Below are positions 14,890 through 35,157 of a stretch of DNA of 37,748 nt, one piece after another. Where the stretch lies: positions 1-37,748 of IMG/VR virus record IMGVR_UViG_3300037493_001661. One strand, written 5' to 3'. Positions within the stretch are counted from its first letter, which is position 1. Each line of letters begins with the position of its first letter. The notes below the pieces were generated by a model. It searched no databases. It saw only the letters and a program-made list of their open reading frames with translations, and had not been told where the DNA came from. This stretch comes from a virus. The position numbers were made by a program, and so were the translations under genes.

Positions 14890-16335
14890 CTATGCTGTAA
14901 ACAACACAAAGTTGTTAGCGGCTTGTACGCATAAACATCTTTCAGACAAGAAGTGAATCTCCATTGCATCAAGATCAGAAGTGTAAGCACCTCCAACAGA
15001 TCCAGTTGTCCAAGATTTCATACGACGGTCATCGGCTTGAGAAGCGCGGTAACGTACGTGTAAGAATGGACGACGAATGTTTGTACCTAATTGTTCATCA
15101 TAAACAGTAGATGTTCCAGCTGGAAGCAATACACCATCAATGGCGTTGCTAGCAACTGCTCCACGAGTAGAAGCGTCATTTAAGTATTTCCAGTCAGTTT
15201 TGTAGAAATCGTAAGATCCACGACGGAAACCGGTAAATCCTAAGTTCAATGACATTTGCTCTGAGTTTTCAAACAAACCGTAAGCAACACCACCAGCAGA
15301 TCCAGAAGATAATGCAGCAAGCATATCATCAAAATCTAAGGAAGTTTGACGGTTTAAGAACAACATGTTTTCCTCGATTGCACCTTGAGTATCTAAGTTT
15401 TTCAATACAGCATCAAAATTAGTAATACCAGCTGCAGCAGAAAATCCTGTTACTTGGTTACCACGAGCTTTAATAGCAGCAAATAGACCTTGAGTTCCTT
15501 TTAATGCCGTACCATTAGGTGGTGTAAATCCAATAGCGGCAGAAGATAAAGCAGCTAATTCGCCTTCAACAACGGACATTTCTAAGTAATCTTCAAAACG
15601 CAAACGAGTTTCAGAAGCGGCTTTCAAATACCATAAGTATCCAGTAGCGCCATCCTCTGTTGCAACATCTACCCATCCAATTTGAGCCGTATCTGAACCA
15701 TTTACGGTATATTTTGAACGGATGATAATTGGTGAATTTGAATATTGAGTAAATGAAGGAGCAACTGAAACGTAGTTAGAGTTAATTTGAGAACCTTTTG
15801 AATATTCAGAACCGTATACAAAGATTTTAAATCCACTTAAAGAAGTAGCAAATCCCGCGGCAAGCAAAGAAGAGGCTGTATATGGAAGCAATGTAAGCAA
15901 AGCTGTACCTGTTCCAGGGGCTGTGCTAGCAGAAACATAACATTTTACTTCAACTCCCGTTGCGGGGTTCATAAGGACTACGGTAGACCCAACGCTAATA
16001 ACGTTAACAATAGTCGTAGACTCTGTAAATGATACTTGATTTGTTGTAGCTGTTGTAGAAACGCTGTTGTAAGCAATATGCAAACGGTTTTGCTCTGACC
16101 AAATAACTTGATCCGATGTCATTGGCATTTCAGCACCCACCATGCGTAAGAATCCAGAAAGAGTTCTGTTCCCATAACGCTCTACTTCATTCTCGTAGAT
16201 TTCAGGTAAATATTGTTTAGCGAATGTACCTCCGCCAGTTGCGCTGTCAAAGGTTAAATAATTTGTAGCAAGCGCTTGTTGCACTTGCGAAGGCACGATA
16301 CTTCCGAATGCGCCACTTGGTGATGTAAAAGCCAT
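14890..16335 (-). CDS. Major capsid protein (putative HK97-fold)
   Basis: The 481-residue product, MAFTSPSGAFGSIVPSQVQQ, is of the usual length for a podoviral or crAss-like capsid protein. An N-terminal arm leads into LPEIYENEVERYGNRTLSGF (about 43-62), a helix of the type seen at the start of HK97-fold capsid proteins. A beta-rich inserted region occupies about 85-150. The middle and C-terminal parts contain RLRFEDYLEMSVVEGELAAL (about 240-260), MLFLNRQTSLDFDDMLAAL and the hydrophobic end QAANNFVLFTA. It is preceded by an acidic scaffold-like gene and followed by a strong hairpin, both usual for a highly expressed capsid gene. The identification rests on size, order (TerL, portal, scaffold, capsid) and these features. 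No cleavage site is evident. Confidence 0.75.
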   Translation of the reverse strand: MAFTSPSGAFGSIVPSQVQQALATNYLTFDSATGGGTFAKQYLPEIYENEVERYGNRTLSGFLRMVGAEMPMTSDQVIWSEQNRLHIAYNSVSTTATTNQVSFTESTTIVNVISVGSTVVLMNPATGVEVKCYVSASTAPGTGTALLTLLPYTASSLLAAGFATSLSGFKIFVYGSEYSKGSQINSNYVSVAPSFTQYSNSPIIIRSKYTVNGSDTAQIGWVDVATEDGATGYLWYLKAASETRLRFEDYLEMSVVEGELAALSSAAIGFTPPNGTALKGTQGLFAAIKARGNQVTGFSAAAGITNFDAVLKNLDTQGAIEENMLFLNRQTSLDFDDMLAALSSGSAGGVAYGLFENSEQMSLNLGFTGFRRGSYDFYKTDWKYLNDASTRGAVASNAIDGVLLPAGTSTVYDEQLGTNIRRPFLHVRYRASQADDRRMKSWTTGSVGGAYTSDLDAMEIHFLSERCLCVQAANNFVLFTA

Positions 16336-17520: not shown

Positions 17521-19941
17521 TTAAAGTTGGTCCATTGTGCCTAAGCCAAAACCGCTACTAATGTTATCAAATTCTGATTCAAAGTTTTTAGGCATTGTAT
17601 CATTTTTCCTTTGATCAATTAGTTCGCTTTGCTGGCTAGCTTGCATTTTAACTCGTTTGTCTTTACGATCTTCTATATCGTTTATTTTTTGTTGTTGCGC
17701 ACCTACTTGAGCCTGAGCTAGTTGCATGCTGTATTTGAATTCTTCAGCCATTAATAACTTTTTGATTTCAAATTCTTGTTGAATTCTGCTTATATCAAAT
17801 TGTGATTTTGCTTGTTGAATCTGTATTTCTGTTTGAGCAAGAGCTTGTTGTTTTTGCACCTCTGCCATTGCCGCAGCCTCAGAGGCTTGAGCATTTGCTT
17901 GTGCCTGCGCCTGCATATTCTCTTGTTGCATTTTTTGATCACGTTCAATTTTCTTCTTGCGTTTGTATTTTAATGATTGATTTGCAAGTTTAAGATTTCT
18001 AATTTGACGTAAATCAATTGCGTCTTCAAGATCAATTCCTCCTGATTGTAATGCTATTTGTATATTTTGTTCTAATTGTGCTTTTTCCTCTTCGTCAGGT
18101 TCTAGTTCTAAAAATATACCAAAGTCATGTAATGTCATTTCTATTAATTCATTCAATGTCTCAACATTAAAACTTGATATACTCTCTCTTAAGGATTGAG
18201 CAGTCAAAGGGAATCTTAATGAATCAGCGACTCTTAATGATATATTTTCGCATAAACGTAATGTTAAGTATAAACTAGATTGTACTATGTGTCTGGTTGC
18301 CGTGTTTGAATTTGCAGCTGCCATCTTCTGTAATCCTACTAATGCTTTTGGATCTGGCGTACTAGCATCTCTAGCTTCATTCAATCCAGTAACATCCCGT
18401 ATCATTTGTAAATAATATTGGTATGTAGTTATTAAAGATTGTATTTTTCCGTTGCCATTTGAAGTTTGCAGCTCTTGTATTGGTACTCTAGCTGGATTGC
18501 CTGTTCCGTCTTGTGTTTGCGATCTACCAACAATACTACCGGTTTGAAAATACATATTCAACGCTTCTGCGGGATTGTATTTTGTACCGTTGCCAAGGTC
18601 AACTTCCATTAATCCATCAACGTCCATAAATACACCATCGGGCACCATTCTTGACAATACCTGTTGAAGTTTTAAGTGTGTTAATTGGATAGTGTCAGCA
18701 AATCCAGTTATTCTACTAACAATAGATTCTATGCGACCCTTGTACATTCTTGGCGCACATATAACGTAATTCATCTCTACCTTTGTGGTATCGGCTACAG
18801 GACGTGTCATATTTTCAGACATTTCCCATTTCAACATTTTATTATGCCCAAGTATTTTTGCACCAGAATATAATACTTCTATGCTTCTTGATACTCTATT
18901 AAAGTTATCGCTTTGAGGCGGATTAAATGTATCTGGTTTTTCTAATGCTTTTTCTAATCCAAATTCCGTTTGTTTAATCTTAAATACTTGATCAGTATAT
19001 GTTTTATATTCAAAATATAAAACTTTAATAGCAGAAGGATCATAGTTCTGCCCATAATAATTTCTAGTATAAGTATTATCACCGGGATATTTTTGTATTT
19101 CCTCTAAGTCTTCATTCGTAAGATCTGGAAATTCTTTTTTAAGTTCTTCTAATTGTATTGCCTTTACTTCTCCAACATAATAAATGTCATCAAAGTTTGG
19201 GTCTTCAGTATACGAGTACACTAAGTTAGCCGGATCAACATAATCCAGTACGATACCATTAGCTTTATTCCAACTTGTTTTAGCGGCAGCAATGCCTAAT
19301 ACGGTTAAATCATAATTGAGTCTTCTATTTATTAACTCATATTTATTACGATCTAATATTTGATTTATTAATTCTTCCTCAGCTATTTCAACAGATTGCT
19401 TGTAACTTAATTGTAAATGCAATTCAAGTTCTTCGTCGCTTTCAGGCAAAGAGTTTGGATCATTAGTATTAAATAAATCTTGACCTAATTCGTTTTTTAC
19501 ACGCATTAGGTACTCTTTTGCATTCATGTCCCTAATTATCTTCTCCGCGTATCTTGTTCTTTTTCTAGTAGATTCAGGGTCTTGTGCGTATGCTTTTATT
19601 TCGTAATTTTTGCTGGATATACCATTTACTAATATGTCAACAAACTTTGGTATTACCGGTACAGGTTTCCAATCAATGTTTAAATAAGACAAATCCCCAT
19701 TAACGGATAATTCATCTTTATATTTTTGTACCGATTGTTCTCCTCTAGCGTATAATCTTAATGAGTGGAATCTTTGCCAGTTTGCACTCCATCTATCGCT
19801 ACCACCAATTGCGGCGGCTCCTCCTCTAAACCATTCATTCTCAATAGCTCTACCAACTGCGGTGCCATACTCGTAACTTTGTTTGACCTCGTCTGGTACT
19901 ACCTGACTTGGGAAAGAACTATTAGTATTAGTATAAATCAT
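17521..19941 (-). CDS. Portal protein
   Basis: At 806 residues the length fits a large podoviral portal. The N-terminal region contains ANWQRFHSLRLYARGEQSV (about 53-71) and VPVIPKFVDILVNGI (about 93-107), a layout typical of portal wing regions. The central part is mixed alpha/beta, with NYVICAPRMYKGRIESIVSR before the helical stem. Residues 660-770 are an extended glutamine/alanine-rich coiled coil (QAQAQANAQASEAAAMAEVQ) resembling the barrel extension of long portals. The gene begins one base before the terminase stop (19942), so the two are directly abutting. The order TerL-portal-scaffold-capsid is the main support. Confidence 0.75.
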   Translation of the reverse strand: MIYTNTNSSFPSQVVPDEVKQSYEYGTAVGRAIENEWFRGGAAAIGGSDRWSANWQRFHSLRLYARGEQSVQKYKDELSVNGDLSYLNIDWKPVPVIPKFVDILVNGISSKNYEIKAYAQDPESTRKRTRYAEKIIRDMNAKEYLMRVKNELGQDLFNTNDPNSLPESDEELELHLQLSYKQSVEIAEEELINQILDRNKYELINRRLNYDLTVLGIAAAKTSWNKANGIVLDYVDPANLVYSYTEDPNFDDIYYVGEVKAIQLEELKKEFPDLTNEDLEEIQKYPGDNTYTRNYYGQNYDPSAIKVLYFEYKTYTDQVFKIKQTEFGLEKALEKPDTFNPPQSDNFNRVSRSIEVLYSGAKILGHNKMLKWEMSENMTRPVADTTKVEMNYVICAPRMYKGRIESIVSRITGFADTIQLTHLKLQQVLSRMVPDGVFMDVDGLMEVDLGNGTKYNPAEALNMYFQTGSIVGRSQTQDGTGNPARVPIQELQTSNGNGKIQSLITTYQYYLQMIRDVTGLNEARDASTPDPKALVGLQKMAAANSNTATRHIVQSSLYLTLRLCENISLRVADSLRFPLTAQSLRESISSFNVETLNELIEMTLHDFGIFLELEPDEEEKAQLEQNIQIALQSGGIDLEDAIDLRQIRNLKLANQSLKYKRKKKIERDQKMQQENMQAQAQANAQASEAAAMAEVQKQQALAQTEIQIQQAKSQFDISRIQQEFEIKKLLMAEEFKYSMQLAQAQVGAQQQKINDIEDRKDKRVKMQASQQSELIDQRKNDTMPKNFESEFDNISSGFGLGTMDQL

Positions 19942-22167
19942 TTATTGTATTATTTGTGAATTATATCCTTTATTGTCGTATTTTTTAAATCCAAGAGAAA
20001 CATTTTGTCTTTCTACTTTTGCTATTGGAGTATATAAGTGTCTGTTACAAGCCATTATAGCTAACCCAGAACTGATGGACGCATCATGATTTGTTCTATT
20101 GGTTATATTAAATCTAGCCCAGTCTTCCAATGTTTTTTGAAAGTACATTGTACCATATTCTCCTTCCCTTTTTAAACCAATGTGTTCCTCTATATGTGTC
20201 TCAATAGCTGACGCGTGCGCTTGCATTACATCAACTGAAGAGTTCGGAATTCCACCAACTTCTTTTTCAAATGGCGAAAGTTTATTTAATATCTTATCAG
20301 GTCTATTCATAGAGTAACCACGATACCCTCTTCTTTTTAGATAATATAATAACCTTGGCTTATTATTTTCTGCAAGTATTGGCATACCGTAAAACACTAG
20401 TGCCATTAATACCTCCTCAAAAAATATTTCAGATGTTTGAGGTCTAGCTATATATTCTAAGAAAAAATGGTTTGGTGGTATATCCTCCATAGAGAACTTA
20501 GTTAACCCATGCAGCGATCCATTTGATCCTCTTGCATTAACTGTACCGGATATATCATAACTATCGCAACCAAATGCACCACAGTGTTCATTGCCTGGGT
20601 ATTTGTACCCATCCTTTATTATCACTCGGTTTTGCAAATATATAGGCGGAACCCAAGAAATTAAAAACCTTCCGTCTTTATTGGGGTAAAATTGTACCCT
20701 TGTATCTTGTATCCCATTTTCCCATTGAAAATTTCCACGTGTAACCACATTAGTATTTCGCAGGTCTTCGTTGTAATCTATTTGTTCATATATTTTTGTA
20801 AGGTTGAACAAAGATTGCTTTGTCTCATCTCTAAATGCATGTTGTTCTGTTCTTGGGAACTGGCGGTAATATTCATTTAATCCGTCGGAGTCTTGCTTTA
20901 ATCCATCAACTTCATTTTGCCAATGTTCAATAACGCCGTATTCAATCCAATTTCCATCAACCCCTTTTACCGGCTTTTCTGGAGTGTCGAAGACAGGTAA
21001 CCCATAAGTATCAATGAATCCCTCGTACGACCATTCCATAGGTATGAACAAACTATATAATCCTGAACTAGTCTGTCCATTGCGGTTTCTTTTCGATACG
21101 TCTGAGTCATGATAAAGTCTTTTAAAGTTTTCCCCTCCTTTGTCTAATGCATTCGAGGTTGATCCCATCATACATTTACCAATAATCCTACTACCTAATC
21201 TTAATGTTGTTTTTGTTACGCGCCAGTTATTTAAAATATTATCTGGTCGCTCCCATTTACCGCTTTCATCATGAACCAATAACTTTAACTTTTCACCATC
21301 ATAACTATTGTCCCCGGTGTTTTTCCAGTCAATAGTTGTGTCAAGTCCTTCAAGTTCCGCTAATTGCTCATTTGAATCTAACTTCCTTCTTGTTAATTTT
21401 GAAGCAGGTACACGATAAGCCAGTTCTGTTTTAGGCCTATCCATACCATCTTGTATTGGTTTAAAAAAGAAAGGATAGTTGACAGAGATTGGTACAACCT
21501 TGTCAGTAAACATTTTTTTAGCATCAGCCCCAGACTTTGATAAAACACCAAAGCGGGAGTCGCTAGACATAGTTGCTTGGTTTACAAGCTCTGAAGAAGA
21601 CATAAAAGAAAATCCGGAACGTCTATTTTTTAAATAACACATTCCATAACATCTTGGATCCGCTTTGCAAGCTTCCCAAAATATAAAGAACAATCTGTTT
21701 GATTCCCTGAAGTCAGGTGCACCTACGTCGATTTTACTCCACTGTAGGTACATGTAATGAGTTCCAGTTATATATGTTGGTTTTCCATTATTGTAATAGA
21801 AAAAACCTTCGTCCCTGTATTTAAACTCGCTATCTATATAATCATACCATCTCTCTTTAAAGTGATCCGGCTGTTTATTCCAATCAAAAACACTTTTTAA
21901 TCTATCCAATTCTTTTGGATAAGAAAACTGTTGCCAAAATTGTTCTTCTTTTACTTCCGATTTTTTATATACATTTTCCTCTAGAGGTAATGCAATCTTT
22001 AAGTTTTGTATCTCGTATATTTCACCGATCTTTCCGGTTTTGCTAATGACAACCATATCGTTATCTTTGTCATACCCGTACTTCCATTTTTTATTTCTAT
22101 TACTTTGGTCTAAAGTCTTCTTTGTTATATAACCAGGTAATATTTTGTATAAGCTTTGTTCGTACAT
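19942..22167 (-). CDS. terL: Terminase large subunit (TerL)
   Basis: This 741-residue packaging motor has an N-terminal ATPase and a C-terminal RNase H-like nuclease. The ATPase shows a Walker A-like element, LKNRRSGFSFMSSSE (about 179-193), which is degenerate relative to GxxGxGK[ST]. It also shows Walker B LKLLVHDE (about 294-301) and a coupling motif, GKCMMGSTSN (about 330-339). Acidic residues fitting a nuclease triad are D535 (in AFGCDSYD), E600 (in GMPILAENNKPR) and D695 (in TNHDASISSGLA). The start codon overlaps the stop of the preceding small gene (TAATG). Together with the portal downstream this identifies the headful or site-specific packaging motor. Residue roles are assigned by family knowledge. 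Confidence 0.85.
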   Translation of the reverse strand: MYEQSLYKILPGYITKKTLDQSNRNKKWKYGYDKDNDMVVISKTGKIGEIYEIQNLKIALPLEENVYKKSEVKEEQFWQQFSYPKELDRLKSVFDWNKQPDHFKERWYDYIDSEFKYRDEGFFYYNNGKPTYITGTHYMYLQWSKIDVGAPDFRESNRLFFIFWEACKADPRCYGMCYLKNRRSGFSFMSSSELVNQATMSSDSRFGVLSKSGADAKKMFTDKVVPISVNYPFFFKPIQDGMDRPKTELAYRVPASKLTRRKLDSNEQLAELEGLDTTIDWKNTGDNSYDGEKLKLLVHDESGKWERPDNILNNWRVTKTTLRLGSRIIGKCMMGSTSNALDKGGENFKRLYHDSDVSKRNRNGQTSSGLYSLFIPMEWSYEGFIDTYGLPVFDTPEKPVKGVDGNWIEYGVIEHWQNEVDGLKQDSDGLNEYYRQFPRTEQHAFRDETKQSLFNLTKIYEQIDYNEDLRNTNVVTRGNFQWENGIQDTRVQFYPNKDGRFLISWVPPIYLQNRVIIKDGYKYPGNEHCGAFGCDSYDISGTVNARGSNGSLHGLTKFSMEDIPPNHFFLEYIARPQTSEIFFEEVLMALVFYGMPILAENNKPRLLYYLKRRGYRGYSMNRPDKILNKLSPFEKEVGGIPNSSVDVMQAHASAIETHIEEHIGLKREGEYGTMYFQKTLEDWARFNITNRTNHDASISSGLAIMACNRHLYTPIAKVERQNVSLGFKKYDNKGYNSQIIQ

Positions 22168-22448
22168 TATTTGGATCTCCCTTCTGCAAAACCCTTAAAT
22201 GCTTTTTGCGTGGTATCTGTTTTAGCAAGTTCTTCGTCATTGATTAGTTTTTCTTCCAGCTCAATGCGTGTTAGAATTTCAAATGCATCGAATATTGCTA
22301 ATTTCTTAGTTGCTGCTGCATTCTTTAATCTATCTGCTGATATATCATCGCCACTATCTATAATTGCTTCCTCCGCTACTTTGACTAATTCATCAACTGC
22401 TTTTCGCCCAGCCCGGATTATACTCAACTTCGTCTCCTTTGTATTCAT
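22167..22448 (-). CDS. Candidate terminase small subunit (93 aa)
   Basis: A short, helical, acidic protein: KLSIIRAGRKAVDELVKVAE (about 7-26), then DDISADRLKNAAATKKLAIF (about 34-53), a helix with many E residues, and a basic tail (KGFAEGRSK). It lies immediately upstream of TerL and is coupled to it by a TAATG overlap, the usual place of TerS. The proposed start overlaps the preceding gene by 56 bp, and no later in-frame ATG would keep the first helix. A helix-turn-helix cannot be proven by eye, so the TerS call rests mainly on position, size and coupling. Confidence 0.5.
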   Translation of the reverse strand: MNTKETKLSIIRAGRKAVDELVKVAEEAIIDSGDDISADRLKNAAATKKLAIFDAFEILTRIELEEKLINDEELAKTDTTQKAFKGFAEGRSK

Positions 22449-22998
22449 ATTTAATTACAATATCATTTGATTTCATACAATATAATCTCTCTCCATCTAT
22501 TAAAAACTCAAATTCACCAAATGGAGTATACCCAACAAGGTCTCCACGGCTTATTTTAAGCTCATCTAAGGAACTATTACCATACTTTAATATACCAATA
22601 TGTTTTCGTTCTTTATCTAGCTTTAAATAGTCTGTATTTTTAATAGGTTTAACGAAACAACGGTCATTAACCGAGTTCCAATTTCCTTCTCTTTTATATA
22701 AATATATCTGGTCTAAATCACAAAAATATAAATCTTCTTCAAAATAGGATCTACTATTTTTTTGTTTGCCCTTCATATCATAAAATCTTCTAAACACATT
22801 ATGATGCATAACAATTATGTCTCCTGGTTTTATATCTGTTTTTATAGCTAATGGAGTTGCTACTACCTCGGCTAATTTATTCACAGATTTAAAACTTTCT
22901 ATTTTTGTGTTTATTATAAGTTCTTTACCGTCAATATCTACTTTGTTATTGTATCTTTCGCCGACTGGTTTAACTATAAAACTAAATACACTTCTCAT
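22393..22998 (-). CDS. Tandem GroES-like (double co-chaperonin-like) protein, 201 aa
   Basis: Both halves follow the GroES pattern. In the N half, FIVKP (about 7-11) corresponds to the GroES first strand. It is followed by a polar loop with a hydrophobic tip (DGKELIIN, 23-30) in the mobile-loop position, AEVVATP (43-49), KPGDIIVM (57-64) and DLDQIYLY (94-101). In the C half, NDRCFVKPI (111-119) is followed by HIGILKYG, RGDLVGYT (151-158), IDGERLYCM (167-175) and SNDIVIKYE (177-185). The C half aligns without gaps to the end of E. coli GroES (GDIVIFNDGYG...IDNEEVLIMSESDILAIVE). The second half lacks a long mobile loop. Chloroplast Cpn20 is a known tandem GroES. I infer a co-chaperonin-like partner, perhaps for the phage GroEL encoded on the same strand. 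It could instead be a structural protein reusing the fold. Confidence 0.55.
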   Translation of the reverse strand: MRSVFSFIVKPVGERYNNKVDIDGKELIINTKIESFKSVNKLAEVVATPLAIKTDIKPGDIIVMHHNVFRRFYDMKGKQKNSRSYFEEDLYFCDLDQIYLYKREGNWNSVNDRCFVKPIKNTDYLKLDKERKHIGILKYGNSSLDELKISRGDLVGYTPFGEFEFLIDGERLYCMKSNDIVIKYEYKGDEVEYNPGWAKSS

Positions 22999-27011: not shown

Positions 27012-27454
27012 CTTGTTTTATCTTTATTTAAGTTATCGACTGCATTGATTAATACTTTTTCAGTATATGATCTTTTGCTTATTGGTTTTCTTCTTGCTTT
27101 GCTTGTGGGCACATCTTCTTCTCCAAGTAATATACGATACATTCTAGCGATAAGTTGTCTGCACTTTAATGAAACTTTATATATGTGATACTTTTGGGTT
27201 GTATGGTTTCTTTTTCTCCATACTGTTATCCACCCTTCTTTAAGTAAATCGTTCCAGCGCCTGTTATTCCAACTATATGCATGTGTACCCGTTATAAAAT
27301 CTTGTCTTGTAAATAAATCTATGCAGTCCAAGTATATTAATAACTCTAAATCCGCGTCTGTAAGATTATTGTTGACGCAAGCCCATTTTCTAACCAATCT
27401 GTAATACTTAAATAAGCCAATGCTTTTTAATTCATCTGCGCTTATTTTTCTCAT
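27005..27454 (-). CDS. Winged-helix-like DNA-binding protein (149 aa)
   Basis: The N-terminal helices (ISADELKSIGLFKYYRLVRK, about 4-23; LTDADLELLIYLDCIDLFTR, about 31-50) are followed by RRWNDLLKEGWITVWRKRNH (about 65-84), which reads as a recognition helix plus wing with basic residues. YKVSLKCRQLIARMYRIL then resembles the final MarR/winged-helix helix. The end is strongly basic (KARRKPISKRS). It begins by a 4-bp ATGA overlap with groES, so it is co-expressed with the chaperonins. It could regulate late genes or bind packaged DNA. The fold call is by pattern only. Confidence 0.5.
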   Translation of the reverse strand: MRKISADELKSIGLFKYYRLVRKWACVNNNLTDADLELLIYLDCIDLFTRQDFITGTHAYSWNNRRWNDLLKEGWITVWRKRNHTTQKYHIYKVSLKCRQLIARMYRILLGEEDVPTSKARRKPISKRSYTEKVLINAVDNLNKDKTRC

Positions 27455-27714
27455 AATACCGCAACAACATCACTAATTTTAATAACAGTATAATTATCAC
27501 CTTCAAACTCTATTTCATGGCCAGCATGCTTATCGTAATAAATTTCATCACCAATTTCCATGAATTTAATATCCTCACTAATAGAGACTATTATTGCTTG
27601 TTTGTATCTTATGTTTTCTTTATCGGATTCTTTTAATAATAATCCGCCTTTTGTTTTATCTGTTACCGCTAGTTTCTTTGGTAGGATAACTATATTATTA
27701 CCTATTGCCTTCAT
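27451..27714 (-). CDS. groES: Co-chaperonin GroES (phage-encoded)
   Basis: The 87 residues follow GroES throughout: NNIVILPKK (about 6-14), a mobile loop ending in the hydrophobic tripeptide GGLLL (23-27, equivalent to GGIVL of E. coli, which binds GroEL), IGDEIYYDK (54-62), a roof hairpin region KHAGHEIEFEGDNYTVIKI and the C-terminal strand SDVVAVL. It is slightly shorter than the usual 94-97 residues, mainly between the mobile loop and the GD strand. The start overlaps the end of groEL by 17 bp and its stop overlaps the next start (ATGA). Gene order groEL then groES is the reverse of most bacteria. It likely caps the adjacent GroEL ring. Confidence 0.9.
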   Translation of the reverse strand: MKAIGNNIVILPKKLAVTDKTKGGLLLKESDKENIRYKQAIIVSISEDIKFMEIGDEIYYDKHAGHEIEFEGDNYTVIKISDVVAVL

Positions 27715-29257
27715 TTACTCGTAAGTTATTGATTACACAATCGGTTGATAGTATTGTTGTAGCAACAGATACTGCGTTTCTTAATGCTGACTTAGTTACA
27801 AGTAATGGATCAATAATACCAGACTTAATCATATCAACGTATTTACCAGTAACAACATTCAATCCCCAGCCTAAGTCTCTATCTTCACTTACCGTCTGAA
27901 CAATACCCGCGTTATCTAGTATCTTATTAAACGGAGCTTTTATTGCATCAATTAAAACCCAATCACCTAAACTGACAGCCCCAATCATTTTTGCGGCATC
28001 CATTAAAGCAATTCCGCCTCCAGGTACAATGCCCTCTTTAATCGCGGCCTTAGTTGCGCAAATTGCATCTTCAACACGATCGGCTTTTTCTTTAAGTTCC
28101 ATATCAGAACTTGCACCTACTTTTACAACAGCTACTTTTCCTGATAAACGCGCTAATCTTTTTTCAAGTCTTACAACTTCACCGGGGCTTTTTGCTTTTT
28201 CTAATTGTTCTTTAACGTGCTTAATTAACCCCAAAACTTCCCCTGATGTTTCTTCAATCTGAATGATTGTTTCTGAATCAGTTGTAATGCTTTTTAAGCA
28301 TCTACCAAGATGCTCAGCGGATATTAAATCCATATCATCTCCAAGGTCTTCGTTAATAACGGTTGCCCCTGTTAATGCAGCAAGATCAGCTAATGTATCT
28401 TTTTTATTAACGCCATATGTTGGCGCATTGATAACATTAATTTTAAAATTGCCCTTTACTTTATTCATTGCTAATACGGATACCACTGCCGGTTCCATGT
28501 CCGCTATAATTAACAGAGACATATTTGTCTTCATTACGTATTCTAATATTGACTGTATCTGTCTTATATTTTCAACAGGCGACTCAATTAACAATACAGC
28601 CGGACGTTCTAACTCCGCAGCTTTTTTATTCAAGTTTGTGACAAAGTGCATGTTCATTAAACCTTTGTCATACTGAACGCCTTCAATTAATTCAATCTCT
28701 GTTTCAGCACTTGTGGATGATTCCATCATTACTACGCCGTTTTCGCCAACCATTCTAAACGCGTCGCCAATTATTTTGCCTAATTCTTTATCATTGTTTG
28801 TAGATATTGTAGCAACGTGGTCAATCATATCGCCCGTCACGGGTACTGAAATACTTTCTAAGTAATCAATTACCAATCTACAAGTATGTTCTATATCTTT
28901 TTTTAGATCTCTACTATTTGTTTTATCTTGAACCTTATAGGCTTCTTCTAAAATAGCGTGAGCTAATACTGTTGCGGTAGTTGTACCGTCTCCAGCTTCT
29001 TTAACCGTTTTGCGAGCCGCCTCTTTTAACAAGCGTGCACCCATATTTTCGATTGGATCCAACAAAATAATACTGTCTGCAACAGTAACTCCATCTTTTG
29101 TGATTACAGGATTCCCTGTTCCATCTTCAAGCATTACACATTTTCCACTAGCCCCAAGGGTTGAACTAACTGCTCTTGTTAGTTTTGTAATGCCCCCAAA
29201 TACTTTATCCCTGGCTTCGTTCCCGAAACTAAGGTTTTTTACAATTCCATCTGACAT
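27698..29257 (-). CDS. groEL: Chaperonin GroEL (phage-encoded, 519 aa)
   Basis: The full equatorial-intermediate-apical layout is present. ATPase elements are kept: ITKDG with D55, GDGTTTAT (89-96), VEDAICATKAAIKEG with D397 and VPGGG (411-415), plus IIDPLLVTKSAL. Differences from E. coli include TLGASGK (33-39) for TLGPKGR in the phosphate-binding loop. In the apical substrate site, L200 and H204 replace Y199 and Y203, while F204 is kept (F205). The C-terminal GGM repeat tail is absent, the chain ending VINNLRVNEGNR. The length is about 30 residues below typical GroEL. It probably folds capsid or giant tail proteins with its own GroES. Phage GroELs are known (Pseudomonas phage EL) but uncommon. 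Confidence 0.95.
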   Translation of the reverse strand: MSDGIVKNLSFGNEARDKVFGGITKLTRAVSSTLGASGKCVMLEDGTGNPVITKDGVTVADSIILLDPIENMGARLLKEAARKTVKEAGDGTTTATVLAHAILEEAYKVQDKTNSRDLKKDIEHTCRLVIDYLESISVPVTGDMIDHVATISTNNDKELGKIIGDAFRMVGENGVVMMESSTSAETEIELIEGVQYDKGLMNMHFVTNLNKKAAELERPAVLLIESPVENIRQIQSILEYVMKTNMSLLIIADMEPAVVSVLAMNKVKGNFKINVINAPTYGVNKKDTLADLAALTGATVINEDLGDDMDLISAEHLGRCLKSITTDSETIIQIEETSGEVLGLIKHVKEQLEKAKSPGEVVRLEKRLARLSGKVAVVKVGASSDMELKEKADRVEDAICATKAAIKEGIVPGGGIALMDAAKMIGAVSLGDWVLIDAIKAPFNKILDNAGIVQTVSEDRDLGWGLNVVTGKYVDMIKSGIIDPLLVTKSALRNAVSVATTILSTDCVINNLRVNEGNR

Positions 29258-29788: not shown

Positions 29789-30032
29789 ATTCTTTTTCCT
29801 TAATTAATTTAATTTTAGTAAGCAACACGGTATCTACTTTTGATAGACTATCTATAAGCAAAGCGCTTGCGTGGTCTTTTTCCTCCAAGTCTTTAATTAC
29901 TAATTGCATTTCTTTTGCTTTGTCTTCTAATCTTTTTATCTCCTTATCACTGGATACCCAAAATAAAGTCATAAATAAGATTAACACAAAACCTAACCAC
30001 TGATTTTTTAATGAATTAAATATAAGATACAT
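29712..30032 (-). CDS. Inner-membrane spanin-like protein (106 aa)
   Basis: One N-terminal membrane segment (WLGFVLILFMTLFWVSS, about 12-28) is followed by a charged coiled coil (DKEIKRLEDKAKEMQLVIKD, about 29-48, continuing to about 85). The end is IIDSLPVSKLQEYFADRYKR, a closing motif I associate with i-spanin-like proteins of Bacteroidota phages. It follows the endolysin gene with a 17-bp overlap and is itself overlapped by the putative outer-membrane partner. The i-spanin (Rz-like) call rests on topology and place in a lysis cassette. Confidence 0.6.
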   Translation of the reverse strand: MYLIFNSLKNQWLGFVLILFMTLFWVSSDKEIKRLEDKAKEMQLVIKDLEEKDHASALLIDSLSKVDTVLLTKIKLIKEKEYETIRIIDSLPVSKLQEYFADRYKR

Positions 30033-30477
30033 AAGTTGTTTTTCCTCCTTGTTTAATTGCTTTTAAAATTTGTTTGCGTTGTTTCCCGGTTGATTCGTAT
30101 GATACATGCACCCAATCAGGATTAGCTGCTGTACCAAATTCCCAAATTAACTGATCGAAGCTTAAGTTGTCTTTGATGTAATTAAACACTTGGGCATTGG
30201 TAATTGCTGTTCCATCCATGTCAATATCAATTGCTTCACCGGAACAATGTTGCGATGTAAGCGATCCGCCTACCTTTTTATTTAAAGCAGCACTCCTGTA
30301 TCCGCTGGAAATATGAATAGGCACTTTAAAATTTTCTCTAATAGGTTCAAATACTTTCTCCGCTAACTTTTTAAAGTTTTCTAAATGTTCCGCGGTTGGT
30401 TCATTGCTGATACCATTTCTTTTTGCTGATTCGCTTCTTGTAACTTCAGCGAGAGATAAGTGTTTACTAAGTTGCAT
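30016..30477 (-). CDS. Endolysin, peptidase M15 family (M15_3-like)
   Basis: A single-domain peptidoglycan endopeptidase or carboxypeptidase. In SGYRSAALNKKVGGSLTSQH (about 58-77), SQH is followed by CSGEAIDID to give SxHxxGxAxD, the zinc-binding signature. DWVHVSYE (about 120-127) supplies the last histidine. I place the start at 30477 (MQLSKHLSLAEVTRS, 153 residues), since the earlier ATG at 30498 adds only a lysine-rich MVQKKKK that lies within the preceding gene. The chosen start overlaps that gene by 11 bp. There is no signal peptide, so release probably depends on a holin. It precedes the spanin-like pair in transcription. Confidence 0.8.
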   Translation of the reverse strand: MQLSKHLSLAEVTRSESAKRNGISNEPTAEHLENFKKLAEKVFEPIRENFKVPIHISSGYRSAALNKKVGGSLTSQHCSGEAIDIDMDGTAITNAQVFNYIKDNLSFDQLIWEFGTAANPDWVHVSYESTGKQRKQILKAIKQGGKTTYVSYI

Positions 30478-30772
30478 CTTTTTCTTTTTTTGTACCAAAA
30501 TAATAACTAAATATCATTAAAGTAAGGGTTTTTATTAAATCAAATAATTGGTCATTTTGATGTTCTGATAATAAAGGCATGCCAAAAGCTACTACTTTAT
30601 CTACTACAAATACACCAACTAAAGCTGTAAATACTAATAGTATAAATCTAACAAGGATTTCTTGTGTGTTATCTGAAAACATTCTATTTATATAATAAAC
30701 AGAATAGCCGATAAATGACATTGCAAATACCACAGCAAATATTGTTATGTATTGATTGTGTGTACTAAACAT
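30467..30772 (-). CDS. Holin-like membrane protein with three hydrophobic segments (101 aa)
   Basis: Three membrane segments are visible: ITIFAVVFAMSFIGYSVYYI (about 9-28), ILVRFILLVFTALVGVFVVD (about 39-58) and DLIKTLTLMIFSYYFGTKK (about 78-96). The end is basic and acidic (KKEKDAT). A three-helix protein of about 100 residues directly before an endolysin is the standard class I holin position. Two other small membrane proteins follow upstream in the operon, so which is the true holin cannot be told from sequence. Confidence 0.55.
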   Translation of the reverse strand: MFSTHNQYITIFAVVFAMSFIGYSVYYINRMFSDNTQEILVRFILLVFTALVGVFVVDKVVAFGMPLLSEHQNDQLFDLIKTLTLMIFSYYFGTKKEKDAT

Positions 30773-31653: not shown

Positions 31654-34600
31654 TTATATTGATGTTATTGTTTCCCAAGCTGCTGCGCCTCTTACGCATA
31701 GTTTTCCAAGTGTTGTATCGTAAACAACCAACCCCGCGGCGGGTGTAGCTATTGCGTTTTTTTGCGTGGTGGTCATTCTCGGTGGTAGGAAGCCTTGAGT
31801 TGTACTTTCAACTGTTAGTTTTGAACTTGCAACGTCGGTTGTGGTGTTGATTAGTACGTTATTTGTTGTTGCATTTATAGTTAATGCTTCAACTGAAGTT
31901 TCGTTGAAAATTGAAAAATCATTCCTTGTGGCTCTTATACCTACAGACCAATTATATGTACCACTTGTTTTTAAAAAAAATCTTGCTGCATTAGATGTGG
32001 CATCTCTTTTAATTGAAAATCCTGTATTACCTGTTGAGCTTATTTCTAATGTTTCAGCAGGAGAAGTTGTTCCTATACCGACATTACCTGTATTAGTAAT
32101 ACGCATTCTTTCTGATATAGATGTATTGTTTCCAGTTGCTAAGGACAGTCCTAATGCACCTCCACTACCAGCATCATAAGCAGATATACTCGCTGCTACA
32201 TTTCCTTCATACCATCCTATAATACCGCCATAGTTGTCTGCTGTTGTGGGTGCGTATAATAACAAAGAAGCATCTGCAGGTGTATTTGAAATTGTAACTG
32301 AATTTAAAACTTTTGAAGATTCAATTTGGTCATTTGTCCTAATGCTGCCGACAACATCAAGTTTTTTAGCAGGCGTTGCCGTTCCAATACCTAAATTACC
32401 AGTTGATGATAACCTTGCTAAATCAGTTCCTCCGGCATTTCTAAACCTAAATTCACCATAAGAAGTATTACTTCCATTCCCAAACTGAAATGCAACTCCT
32501 ACCTCATCTGGTCTAATTACATTACCAACCGACGGTAGAGAAACTATTCTTAATGAGCCATTTATTACTGAATTACCATTACCAGCAATACTTAACAAAT
32601 CAGTTGTATCTGCACTATTTCTAACTCGTAAAGCGATGTCAGTACTTAACGCTCCTTGAGCTTTAACCCTCGCCGTGCCGTTTACGTCTAATTTATACCC
32701 TGCGTCGGTTGTGGTGTTTATAAGAACGTTGCCTGTTGTTCCGTGTATTCGTAGCCTTTCAGAACTATTAGTCCAAAAAGAAATAGGATTTGCTCCACCT
32801 TGAAAAAGCACCATACCCCCACTAAAAGCAGATACAGAATTAATCATAGAAGTGTTTGCCCAAGGAGAATGTGTTGATGAGTGCGCCCTAAGGCTTATTG
32901 AGCCAACTAATGATGCACATTCAATAGCTCCAAAAGCGCCTGTGCCTGTGTTTGTATTTCTTGCCCAAATACCATTAGTTCCGTTAGTACTAGTTTCTAA
33001 TTGTAATTTATAGAGTGGTGTTGCCGTTCCAATCCCTAAACGATTATTCGTGTTATCCCAAAACATTCCTGTGCCTGAAGCACCAAATAATACATTTCCT
33101 GCTGTTGTTTCAATCGCTCGAAAATCAGCAGCAGCCGTTAAAGTAGGGTCAATAAATAAACCTCTTGTTATTCCATTCGCTCCACCTGTTTGGTTTATTG
33201 TTGGAGTTAATTTTAAAGCATTAAAGGAAGGTGTGCCGCTTACAGATGTTGGCGCGTATATTCCCGTAAAATGTCCAAATCCTTGCTCGTTACTTGTTGA
33301 ATTTAATGTGTTGTAAGATTGTGCATTAACTACATATCCCGAACCACCTATTAAATTTGAGCGAAAATTTAAATTATTGCCCAAACTTGCTACTGCAAAA
33401 CCACTACTTATAAAAAAATTGTTTTGAATCCTCGCCGTGCCGTTTACGTCTAAGCGATACCCTGCGTCGGTTGTGGTGTTTATCCCTACGTTTCCCGTAT
33501 TCAATAAAACCAATCCATCAATAACCGCACCATTAAAATAAGATAATGACACACCTTGGGCTTGATATAGTTGAGCTCTATTAGAAACTGTAGATAAATT
33601 TAATCCAACTGCATTTGCAAATTGATTACTGCTTCTAATGCTGCCGACAACGTCTAAAGCAACTCCTGGAGTAGCCGTTCCAATCCCTAAACGATTATTA
33701 GTATCATTCCAAAATAAGTTCGCATTGTCTTGCGCTATTGTTGTGCCATTTGAAAATAAAACGCTGCCGCTTGTGAGTGCAGGAAGTGTGAATTTATTAT
33801 TAAATGCAGTCCAATCCGTAGACGATAACGCCCCACGATTTGCAGCCGATGCCGTTGGTAGATTAAATGTGTGAGTACTTGTCGCTGAACTTATAGCGAA
33901 GTCCGTGCCGCTTGTGCCTGTCGCAAATGATTGTACCTGTGTAGTCAATCCGTTTAACGCAGTCAAACCTGTTGAAAATGTTGTAATGACTTGGCACAAA
34001 TGACTGTTTTCTGTATGTAGTGTAATTGTGCGCCCTGAGTGCGTTACATATATTCTTACTGCCAACCTATCCGTAGCTAATAGCGTTGTTTGTGGCACTG
34101 CTAACGCACTCACGTATAAATCAATTGCAGTTCCGTTGGTAATACCTTCGGGATTAGCTGAGTTCGACGCTATCAAAGATAAAGTTACCCCATTCCACTT
34201 GTACAATTCAACGTAAAATGAAGGCGAACCGCCACCACTTGACGCGCTAAAATAGGTCTCAAAGTTCCAATTCCCCGCAGGAATTTCCAATAAATTAGGA
34301 ACGTTTGCGTCGGTTATAAATGATTGAATATATCCGTTTGCGTTTATTGTAAAATCAGTACCCGCTCCTAAAATTGGAGTTCTATCCATTTCCCTAAACG
34401 CAACGCCTCCGATTGTGCCTTGTGAAACTGAGCCGTTTAAGTAAAAAGACAAAGACGCTCCGCCACCTGTTGAAGTAGGGAAATTTGCAAGTGAGCCATC
34501 GCCTCGCACGTATTGACTAACCACGCCCGCCCCTGTAACTGCTATATCTCCACTTGAAGTTATTGGACTATTTGTAACACTAAATGCTGAAGGCATTGTT

Positions 34601-35157
34601 AAACCTACCGATGTAACTGCTGAAGGAATATCAGCAGTAGTTGCTATTGTATATGTTCCTGAAGGTTTATTTGGTAAGTTAAAATAAACATTTAGATTTG
34701 CAGCATTAGAACTTAAATACGAGTATGCGCTACCATTTCCAAACGAAATAACACCACTTGAAAGTAACCCTACTCCTGTTGGAGCCCCTTTTGTGTTTGT
34801 TGATATATAGCTATTTGAGATAATAGACTCATACAAAGCAGAGTCTACCACTACATCATTTGTAGTTGTATTCCCCGCATCTGTTACGCTCTGTAGTGTA
34901 GGCGCAACGTATCCCGCATTATAGTCTGGTATATTTAATATATCACCTATTAGCGTGGCCGGACCGCTTGTTCCAATTGTGGTTAACGTAATGCCTACAT
35001 CCGGAAAATTAGCTGACATAAATTGGCCCAGCGATTGCAGAGTGAAATTTTTTGTTATTAATTTCTTATGTCCGTCTATTTCCGTAATGGAAGTTCCAAC
35101 TAACATGTCCTCTAATGACAGCTGCGTTTCTTGGGAGTAACTATAAGATATTGCCAT
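31654..35157 (-). CDS. Tail fibre / receptor-binding protein (1,167 aa)
   Basis: The N-terminal 70 residues (MAISYSYSQETQLSLEDMLV...GTSGPATLIGDILNIPDY) are shared with the next fibre gene and probably anchor it to the virion. The shaft holds seven repeats of about 20 residues of the form NVGIGT-T-P-LDV-G (e.g. RLGIGTATPGVALDVVGSIR, NVGINTTTDAGYRLDVNGTA) separated by beta-rich inserts. The C-terminus (GFLPPRMTTTQKNAIATPAA...KLCVRGAAAWETITSI) is a common ending of Bacteroidota-phage and bacterial surface repeat proteins. No S74 chaperone catalytic domain, usual for fibres with such repeats, is visible. It is likely a trimeric adhesin. Receptor unknown. Confidence 0.75.
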   Translation of the reverse strand: MAISYSYSQETQLSLEDMLVGTSITEIDGHKKLITKNFTLQSLGQFMSANFPDVGITLTTIGTSGPATLIGDILNIPDYNAGYVAPTLQSVTDAGNTTTNDVVVDSALYESIISNSYISTNTKGAPTGVGLLSSGVISFGNGSAYSYLSSNAANLNVYFNLPNKPSGTYTIATTADIPSAVTSVGLTMPSAFSVTNSPITSSGDIAVTGAGVVSQYVRGDGSLANFPTSTGGGASLSFYLNGSVSQGTIGGVAFREMDRTPILGAGTDFTINANGYIQSFITDANVPNLLEIPAGNWNFETYFSASSGGGSPSFYVELYKWNGVTLSLIASNSANPEGITNGTAIDLYVSALAVPQTTLLATDRLAVRIYVTHSGRTITLHTENSHLCQVITTFSTGLTALNGLTTQVQSFATGTSGTDFAISSATSTHTFNLPTASAANRGALSSTDWTAFNNKFTLPALTSGSVLFSNGTTIAQDNANLFWNDTNNRLGIGTATPGVALDVVGSIRSSNQFANAVGLNLSTVSNRAQLYQAQGVSLSYFNGAVIDGLVLLNTGNVGINTTTDAGYRLDVNGTARIQNNFFISSGFAVASLGNNLNFRSNLIGGSGYVVNAQSYNTLNSTSNEQGFGHFTGIYAPTSVSGTPSFNALKLTPTINQTGGANGITRGLFIDPTLTAAADFRAIETTAGNVLFGASGTGMFWDNTNNRLGIGTATPLYKLQLETSTNGTNGIWARNTNTGTGAFGAIECASLVGSISLRAHSSTHSPWANTSMINSVSAFSGGMVLFQGGANPISFWTNSSERLRIHGTTGNVLINTTTDAGYKLDVNGTARVKAQGALSTDIALRVRNSADTTDLLSIAGNGNSVINGSLRIVSLPSVGNVIRPDEVGVAFQFGNGSNTSYGEFRFRNAGGTDLARLSSTGNLGIGTATPAKKLDVVGSIRTNDQIESSKVLNSVTISNTPADASLLLYAPTTADNYGGIIGWYEGNVAASISAYDAGSGGALGLSLATGNNTSISERMRITNTGNVGIGTTSPAETLEISSTGNTGFSIKRDATSNAARFFLKTSGTYNWSVGIRATRNDFSIFNETSVEALTINATTNNVLINTTTDVASSKLTVESTTQGFLPPRMTTTQKNAIATPAAGLVVYDTTLGKLCVRGAAAWETITSI
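32671..32720 (-). repeat. 50-bp direct repeat inside the fibre gene, copy 1
   Basis: It matches 33433-33482 except for four adjacent-to-near positions and encodes NTTTDAGYKLDVNGTAR. It is a target for recombination between shaft repeats. Confidence 0.8.
33433..33482 (-). repeat. 50-bp direct repeat inside the fibre gene, copy 2
   Basis: It pairs with 32671-32720 and encodes NTTTDAGYRLDVNGTAR. The near-identity at DNA level, beyond protein need, suggests recent duplication. Confidence 0.8.

Follow-up and report, generated by a model that had tools for sequence, protein, structure and literature searches.

A phage GroEL/GroES pair and a probable tandem co-chaperonin in a lineage related to Callevirus and Elemovirus

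Callevirus (Pervagoviridae), Elemovirus and Maribacter phage Panino are relatives of an old, uncultivated phage lineage that carries, in addition to a groEL–groES pair, a third gene beside its terminase that probably encodes a second, tandem co-chaperonin of the Cpn20 type. We consider it fairly likely that GroEL, a single-domain lid and a tandem lid together make up a virion-assembly folding system of this lineage. The DNA analysed, referred to here as the window, is IMGVR_UViG_3300037493_001661, a linear IMG/VR fragment of 37,748 nt and not a complete genome; the relevant features are listed in Table 1.

The GroEL/GroES pair as such is already known in phages. The first-pass annotation of this DNA held that, as a rule, phages encode just one of the two proteins, a view that is out of date given the pairs in Panino, Elemovirus, Callevirus and Immutovirus and the published statement that many phages encode GroES alone, some both and a few GroEL alone (PMC7185714). 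The publication on Panino already states that both proteins are present, GroEL has been reported in 36 genomes of environmental origin that belong to the phi38:1 group (PMC5332604), and the core genes of Pervagoviridae include Cpn10 (PMC8776804). Adjacent or near-adjacent pairs are annotated or readable in Panino, ctfjg026, Elemovirus, Immutovirus, Bacteroides phage SJC03 and Callevirus; in Vibrio phage Va1 the two genes are widely separated. In an unrelated 39-kb uncultured myovirus (MW202566), GroEL directly follows a 107-aa 'mhsp60' gene and adjoins the terminase; the mhsp60 product looks GroES-like, with a score below the GroES profile threshold. The presence of three chaperonin genes in one lineage, including a Cpn20-like tandem lid, appears to be undescribed in the literature searched.

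Table 1. Chaperonin genes and reference genes in the window
Feature	Coordinates	Strand	Evidence or remark
groEL, group I chaperonin, 519 aa	27698..29257	-	Pfam Cpn60; PHROG 5725, E=3.7e-132; GroEL fold in AlphaFold model
groES, single Cpn10 domain, 87 aa	27451..27714	-	Pfam Cpn10, E=9.3e-13
17-bp overlap between groEL 3' end and groES 5' end	27698..27714	-	Shared by 61 of 80 relatives
GroES mobile loop, residues 14-35, GroEL-binding motif G-G-L-L-L	27610..27675	-	
Probable second co-chaperonin (G2), 201 aa, two Cpn10 domains predicted in tandem	22393..22998	-	phrog_13932
Terminase large subunit	19942..22167	-	phrog_6681, E=4.2e-166; the 201-aa co-chaperonin gene is tied to it
Portal protein	17521..19941	-	phrog_6547, E=1.8e-145; lineage marker
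Virion protein, 481 aa, candidate major capsid protein	14890..16335	-	phrog_13704 'head and packaging', E=3.3e-90

The GroEL/GroES pair and its working parts

As the first-pass annotation described, both genes of the pair are intact open reading frames that overlap and lie on the minus strand with the portal, terminase and structural genes. The pair starts 60 bp past the preceding gene and overlaps the next gene by 4 bp. No Bacteroidota-type promoter consensus was found upstream of groEL, which is weak evidence for co-transcription. An M15-peptidase endolysin (30016-30498, Pfam E=5.9e-20) is encoded ~750 bp upstream of groEL, so that the pair is flanked by a lysis gene on one side and the packaging genes on the other; upstream of the endolysin lies a gene for a 1,167-aa protein (31654-35157) with weak matches to tail-fibre PHROGs.

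Among deposited phages, relatives of the portal protein are confined to phages of Flavobacteriaceae and a single uncultured phage, and terminase and portal relatives together come almost entirely from Flavobacteriaceae phages, so a flavobacterial host is likely. One protein of the window contains a crAss-type muzzle domain. Sequence searches of solved structures returned no relatives of the portal or of the 481-aa protein, whose candidacy as major capsid protein follows from gene order, and defence-system models gave no match.

Assignment of the GroEL is supported by Pfam Cpn60_TCP1 (E=1.2e-58, covering 26-510), by NCBIfam PRK00013.1 (480 bits, above the cut-off of 397) and by an AlphaFold model (pLDDT 81.6) with TM values of up to 0.89 to Hsp60 chains. 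Its score against the TIGR02348 equivalog (471.8 bits) falls below the cut-off of 582.1, marking it as a divergent member. The 87-aa protein has a Cpn10 domain and a mobile loop with a G-G-hydrophobic motif, and its closest solved relative is the chloroplast Cpn20 7ekq_R (E=2.7e-13), with both domains of Cpn20 matched.

The ATP site and the GroES mobile loop are retained. D52, D87, D398, D495 and the GDGTTT stretch (TTT motif) of the ATP site are identical to E. coli GroEL, and P33 is the sole changed residue among the E. coli ATP-site positions examined. Across 67 distinct GroES sequences of the lineage, G24 is conserved in 100%, L25 in 99% and L27 in 96%, and the mobile-loop motif reads G-G-L-L-L as compared with G-G-I-V-L in E. 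coli. The lid- and substrate-binding groove is altered. Of the positions compared (Y199, Y203, F204, L234, L237, L259, V263 and V264 in E. coli numbering), the lineage GroELs carry Y199L (21/21), L234Q (20/21), V263A (20/21) and V264M (20/21), as well as a lineage-wide Y203H/N, and F204 and L237 are kept; Y, L, V and V at 199, 234, 263 and 264 are near-invariant in 43 cellular GroELs. A changed groove combined with a fixed GroES loop fits a cognate, host-independent pair as judged from these sequences. Phage GroEL and GroES may thus be matched to one another and avoid the host GroES, but the phage GroEL could also be served by the host GroES.

Contacts between rings may differ as well. The segment equivalent to E. 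coli 421-459 has 32-34 residues in the phage lineage, compared with 37-42 in the 43 cellular GroELs, segment 456-486 has 25-29 compared with 29-32, and A109 is replaced by D, E, N or P or by a gap. With these ring–ring segments shortened, weak or single rings are possible, and the phage GroEL might work as, or split into, single rings that offer a larger chamber, like the chaperonins of EL, OBP and AR9. We treat this reading as tentative and give it somewhat less than an even chance: the lost contact residues depend on the alignment used, with two alignments disagreeing at E461-V464, the segment lengths are kept in other phages of the clade, and ring number is not deducible from sequence. An exact loss of the single-ring-mutant positions R452, E461, S463 and V464 was considered and dropped because a more careful alignment shifts the gaps; the shortening of the segments stands.

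A probable second co-chaperonin gene beside the terminase

The first-pass annotation spoke of a complete GroEL/GroES machine. This is sound insofar as the pair is matched, co-inherited and phage-type, with ATP site and loop conserved, but it overlooks the 201-aa gene next to the terminase. The 201-aa protein matches its PHROG, annotated 'co-chaperonin GroES', with E=1.6e-23, and its AlphaFold model (pLDDT 89.3) has two beta-rich halves. The best fold matches in the PDB are the Chlamydomonas tandem co-chaperonins Cpn20 (7ekq_R, E=3e-5) and Cpn23 (7ekq_Q, E=2.5e-4), which align with the model over its full length (~204-215 columns), and single Cpn10s rank next. By profile comparison the C-terminal half is a Cpn10 (E=9.6e-13, probability 97.8); the N-terminal half gives a weak, suggestive match (E=2.4e-4, probability 44), and its predicted Cpn10 fold comes from the model and the fit of that model to Cpn20.

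Judging by the strand limits in the model, the N-terminal half contains a long, loop-like insert (~residues 12-41) in which an 'L-I' element is conserved. The mobile loop of the C-terminal half is short, about 9 residues. With one long insert and one short loop, each 201-aa subunit may contact GroEL once. We infer that this protein also serves as a lid, either by itself on host or phage GroEL or in combination with the single GroES.

Homologues of the 201-aa gene number 138 in the contigs examined, and 134 of these end 100-399 bp upstream of the terminase. The terminase loci that lack a homologue all end within 351 bp, and the gene is present wherever the contig extends that far. In named phages the homologue is mostly annotated cpn10 or GroES (Elemovirus, Callevirus, Panino) and is hypothetical in ctfjg026. 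The complete genomes of the Pachyviridae phi18:3 and phi13:2 encode a homologue of the 201-aa protein and an 85-aa GroES without a GroEL; the Cpn20-like lid is thus kept even where GroEL is missing, and the lids of these phages presumably act on host GroEL.

The constant association with the terminase, in every contig with room for the gene, could also mean that the 201-aa protein has a structural or packaging role and retains the Cpn10 fold alone, leaving groEL and groES as the whole chaperonin system. Its persistence in Pachyviridae without GroEL and a C-domain mobile loop that, as read from the model, is down to about 9 residues would agree with such a role. We nevertheless find it rather unlikely. 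The top structural matches are tandem co-chaperonins followed by Cpn10s, and a search of the 201-aa profile against solved structures by sequence found no relatives and matched no solved virion protein. The GroEL-less Pachyviridae, moreover, retain the 85-aa GroES too, which makes a lid acting on host GroEL a natural arrangement, as for T4 gp31. A second co-chaperonin remains our preferred reading of the 201-aa gene.

Inheritance and origin of the chaperonin genes

A scan of IMG/VR viral contigs with the window GroEL identified at least 309 relatives, and the closest 80 (70-92% identical) were used for comparison. In all 80, groES follows groEL on the same strand and both genes are intact. In 61 of these contigs the genes overlap by 17 bp, in seven by 4 bp, in five by 20 bp, in three by 1 bp and in one by 23 bp; the other three relatives (L065, L066 and L083) have a gap of 361-374 bp, space for one small inserted gene. 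The adjacent groES in 80/80 relatives sets the lineage apart from the EL/OBP type, defined by having no GroES encoded. All three chaperonin genes have dN/dS values of 0.07-0.15 (window compared with two relatives), indicative of purifying selection at the sequence level. The recurrence in 80/80, the overlap in 61 and these dN/dS values argue that the arrangement is not due to chance.

Position and divergence are also shared. The pair lies 6-10 kb upstream of the terminase in 11 of the 16 terminase-anchored contigs that have >=8 kb upstream; the other five comprise one (L173) with GroEL elsewhere in the record and four fragments of 12-20 kb without GroEL. Protein distances of GroEL, GroES, the 201-aa co-chaperonin and the terminase are correlated (Mantel r 0.75-0.91, n=51), which points to vertical co-inheritance of the chaperonin genes with the terminase. 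Taken together, the fixed order, low dN/dS and correlated distances imply that the pair was inherited with the phage rather than recently acquired and is a fixed and old trait of the lineage.

Other phage GroELs do have a captured look: in our GroEL tree (74 rows), SJC03 and a 735-kb phage have GroELs that fall within Bacteroidota, and those of Vibrio phages (Vibrio phage Va1) group with E. coli. By analogy, the window pair could be a recently captured host groESL, a passenger with no special role for the phage, but we consider this very improbable. Among cellular GroELs from a limited sample of genomes, none exceeds 42% identity to the window GroEL and the best ones are spread over phyla, and groES precedes groEL in 74 of 75 cellular loci, the reverse of the order in the phage lineage. 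In the tree, the lineage forms a clade (support 100/100) on a long private stem. It groups first with Panino, ctfjg026 and elemo (99/96), next with phi40:1 (96/98), and stands separate from the sampled cellular GroELs. The GC content of groEL is near that of the window. These results, with the purifying selection and the co-divergence with the terminase, answer the phylogenetic check proposed in the first-pass annotation, and the disrupted copies in relatives that it named as the signature of a passenger are not seen in any of the 80.

The age and source of the gene are harder to fix. An AU test on the full set rejects a grouping with Bacteroidota (p=7.6e-6), whereas with the other divergent long-branch phages left out the grouping is not rejected (p=0.056). 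A firm rejection of a Bacteroidota origin was dropped for this reason, and an old capture is possible. Long branches weaken the deep GroEL tree, and the sequences are best described as an old phage-type GroEL for which an ancient capture from cells is possible.

Two sets of records call for caution in other contexts. The GroEL of a Candidatus Rokubacteria MAG contig (L221) sits among Flavobacteriaceae beside Aequorivita, so this contig is probably MAG contamination. Bacterial-like GroEL/GroES in OR846590, PQ520251, OR848861 and similar short, unannotated Listeria and Enterococcus phage records probably represent host DNA in the assemblies.

A proposed folding system and its relation to known chaperonins

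In the folding system that we favor, the phage GroEL would bind nascent virion proteins and use ATP to enclose the client under a cognate lid built from the phage's own Cpn10 domains. Virion proteins are the clients we would expect, and the candidate capsid protein (~53 kDa) is most likely among them. The GroEL cage encloses about 60 kDa. The candidate capsid protein would fit; the 1,936-residue tail protein, parts of which were put forward as possible clients in the first pass, is far over this size. The accompanying notion of a late operon is apt for the window lineage, but does not extend to its relatives: the Elemovirus pair is on the opposite strand to the packaging genes, and the Callevirus pair is beside the DNA polymerase. 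Since the latter adjoins replication genes, a role confined to late, structural functions cannot be generalized.

A more elaborate possibility is a chloroplast-like lid system, independently evolved, in which one- and two-domain co-chaperonins combine in mixed seven-domain lids (e.g. one GroES and three tandem subunits). The phage GroEL that they cap would, through its altered groove, no longer use the host lid. We think this improbable, but phage lid mixing is the most interesting question raised by our analysis, given that in plastids one-domain and tandem co-chaperonins form hetero-oligomeric lids (PMC5780408). If confirmed, the set of three chaperonin genes with a Cpn20-like tandem lid would offer a phage parallel to lid mixing in plastids that is simple and can be cultivated, as Callevirus and Elemovirus are lab-grown, and a test of lid specialization for capsid proteins, as in T4.

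The closest known systems are those of Callevirus (phi38:1, phi40:1 and Calle), Elemovirus, Panino and ctfjg026, which likewise have a GroEL, a single GroES and a ~180-195-aa co-chaperonin beside the terminase, and whose GroELs form one clade with that of the window. Their GroELs are, however, just 34-39% identical to the window protein, gene order, strand and position differ, and the groove residues of the window GroEL are specific to its lineage. Bacterial groESL (E. coli, Bacteroidota) shares the GroEL fold, ATP site and GroES loop at about 40-42% identity, but there groES precedes groEL, and the window GroEL lacks the GGM tail and has altered groove and ring–ring segments. The chaperonins of phages EL, OBP and AR9 are similarly phage-encoded, and weak ring–ring contacts are a possible common feature. 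They are described as GroES-independent, with the EL protein ~22% identical to GroEL (PMC7185714, PMC5934643), whereas the window phage has its own GroES.

For the lids, T4 gp31 provides the model of a phage co-chaperonin dedicated to capsid folding. T4 has no GroEL, though, and gp31 is a single domain whose fold matches that of the 201-aa protein weakly (1g31, E=0.15). The chloroplast set of Cpn10 and tandem Cpn20 is the precedent for one- and two-domain co-chaperonins occurring together, as predicted for the window phage, although the 201-aa protein is at most 16% identical to the chloroplast tandem lids. Mixed-lid assembly is an established property of the plastid proteins; in the window phage, whose proteins were modelled as single chains, it is a possibility.
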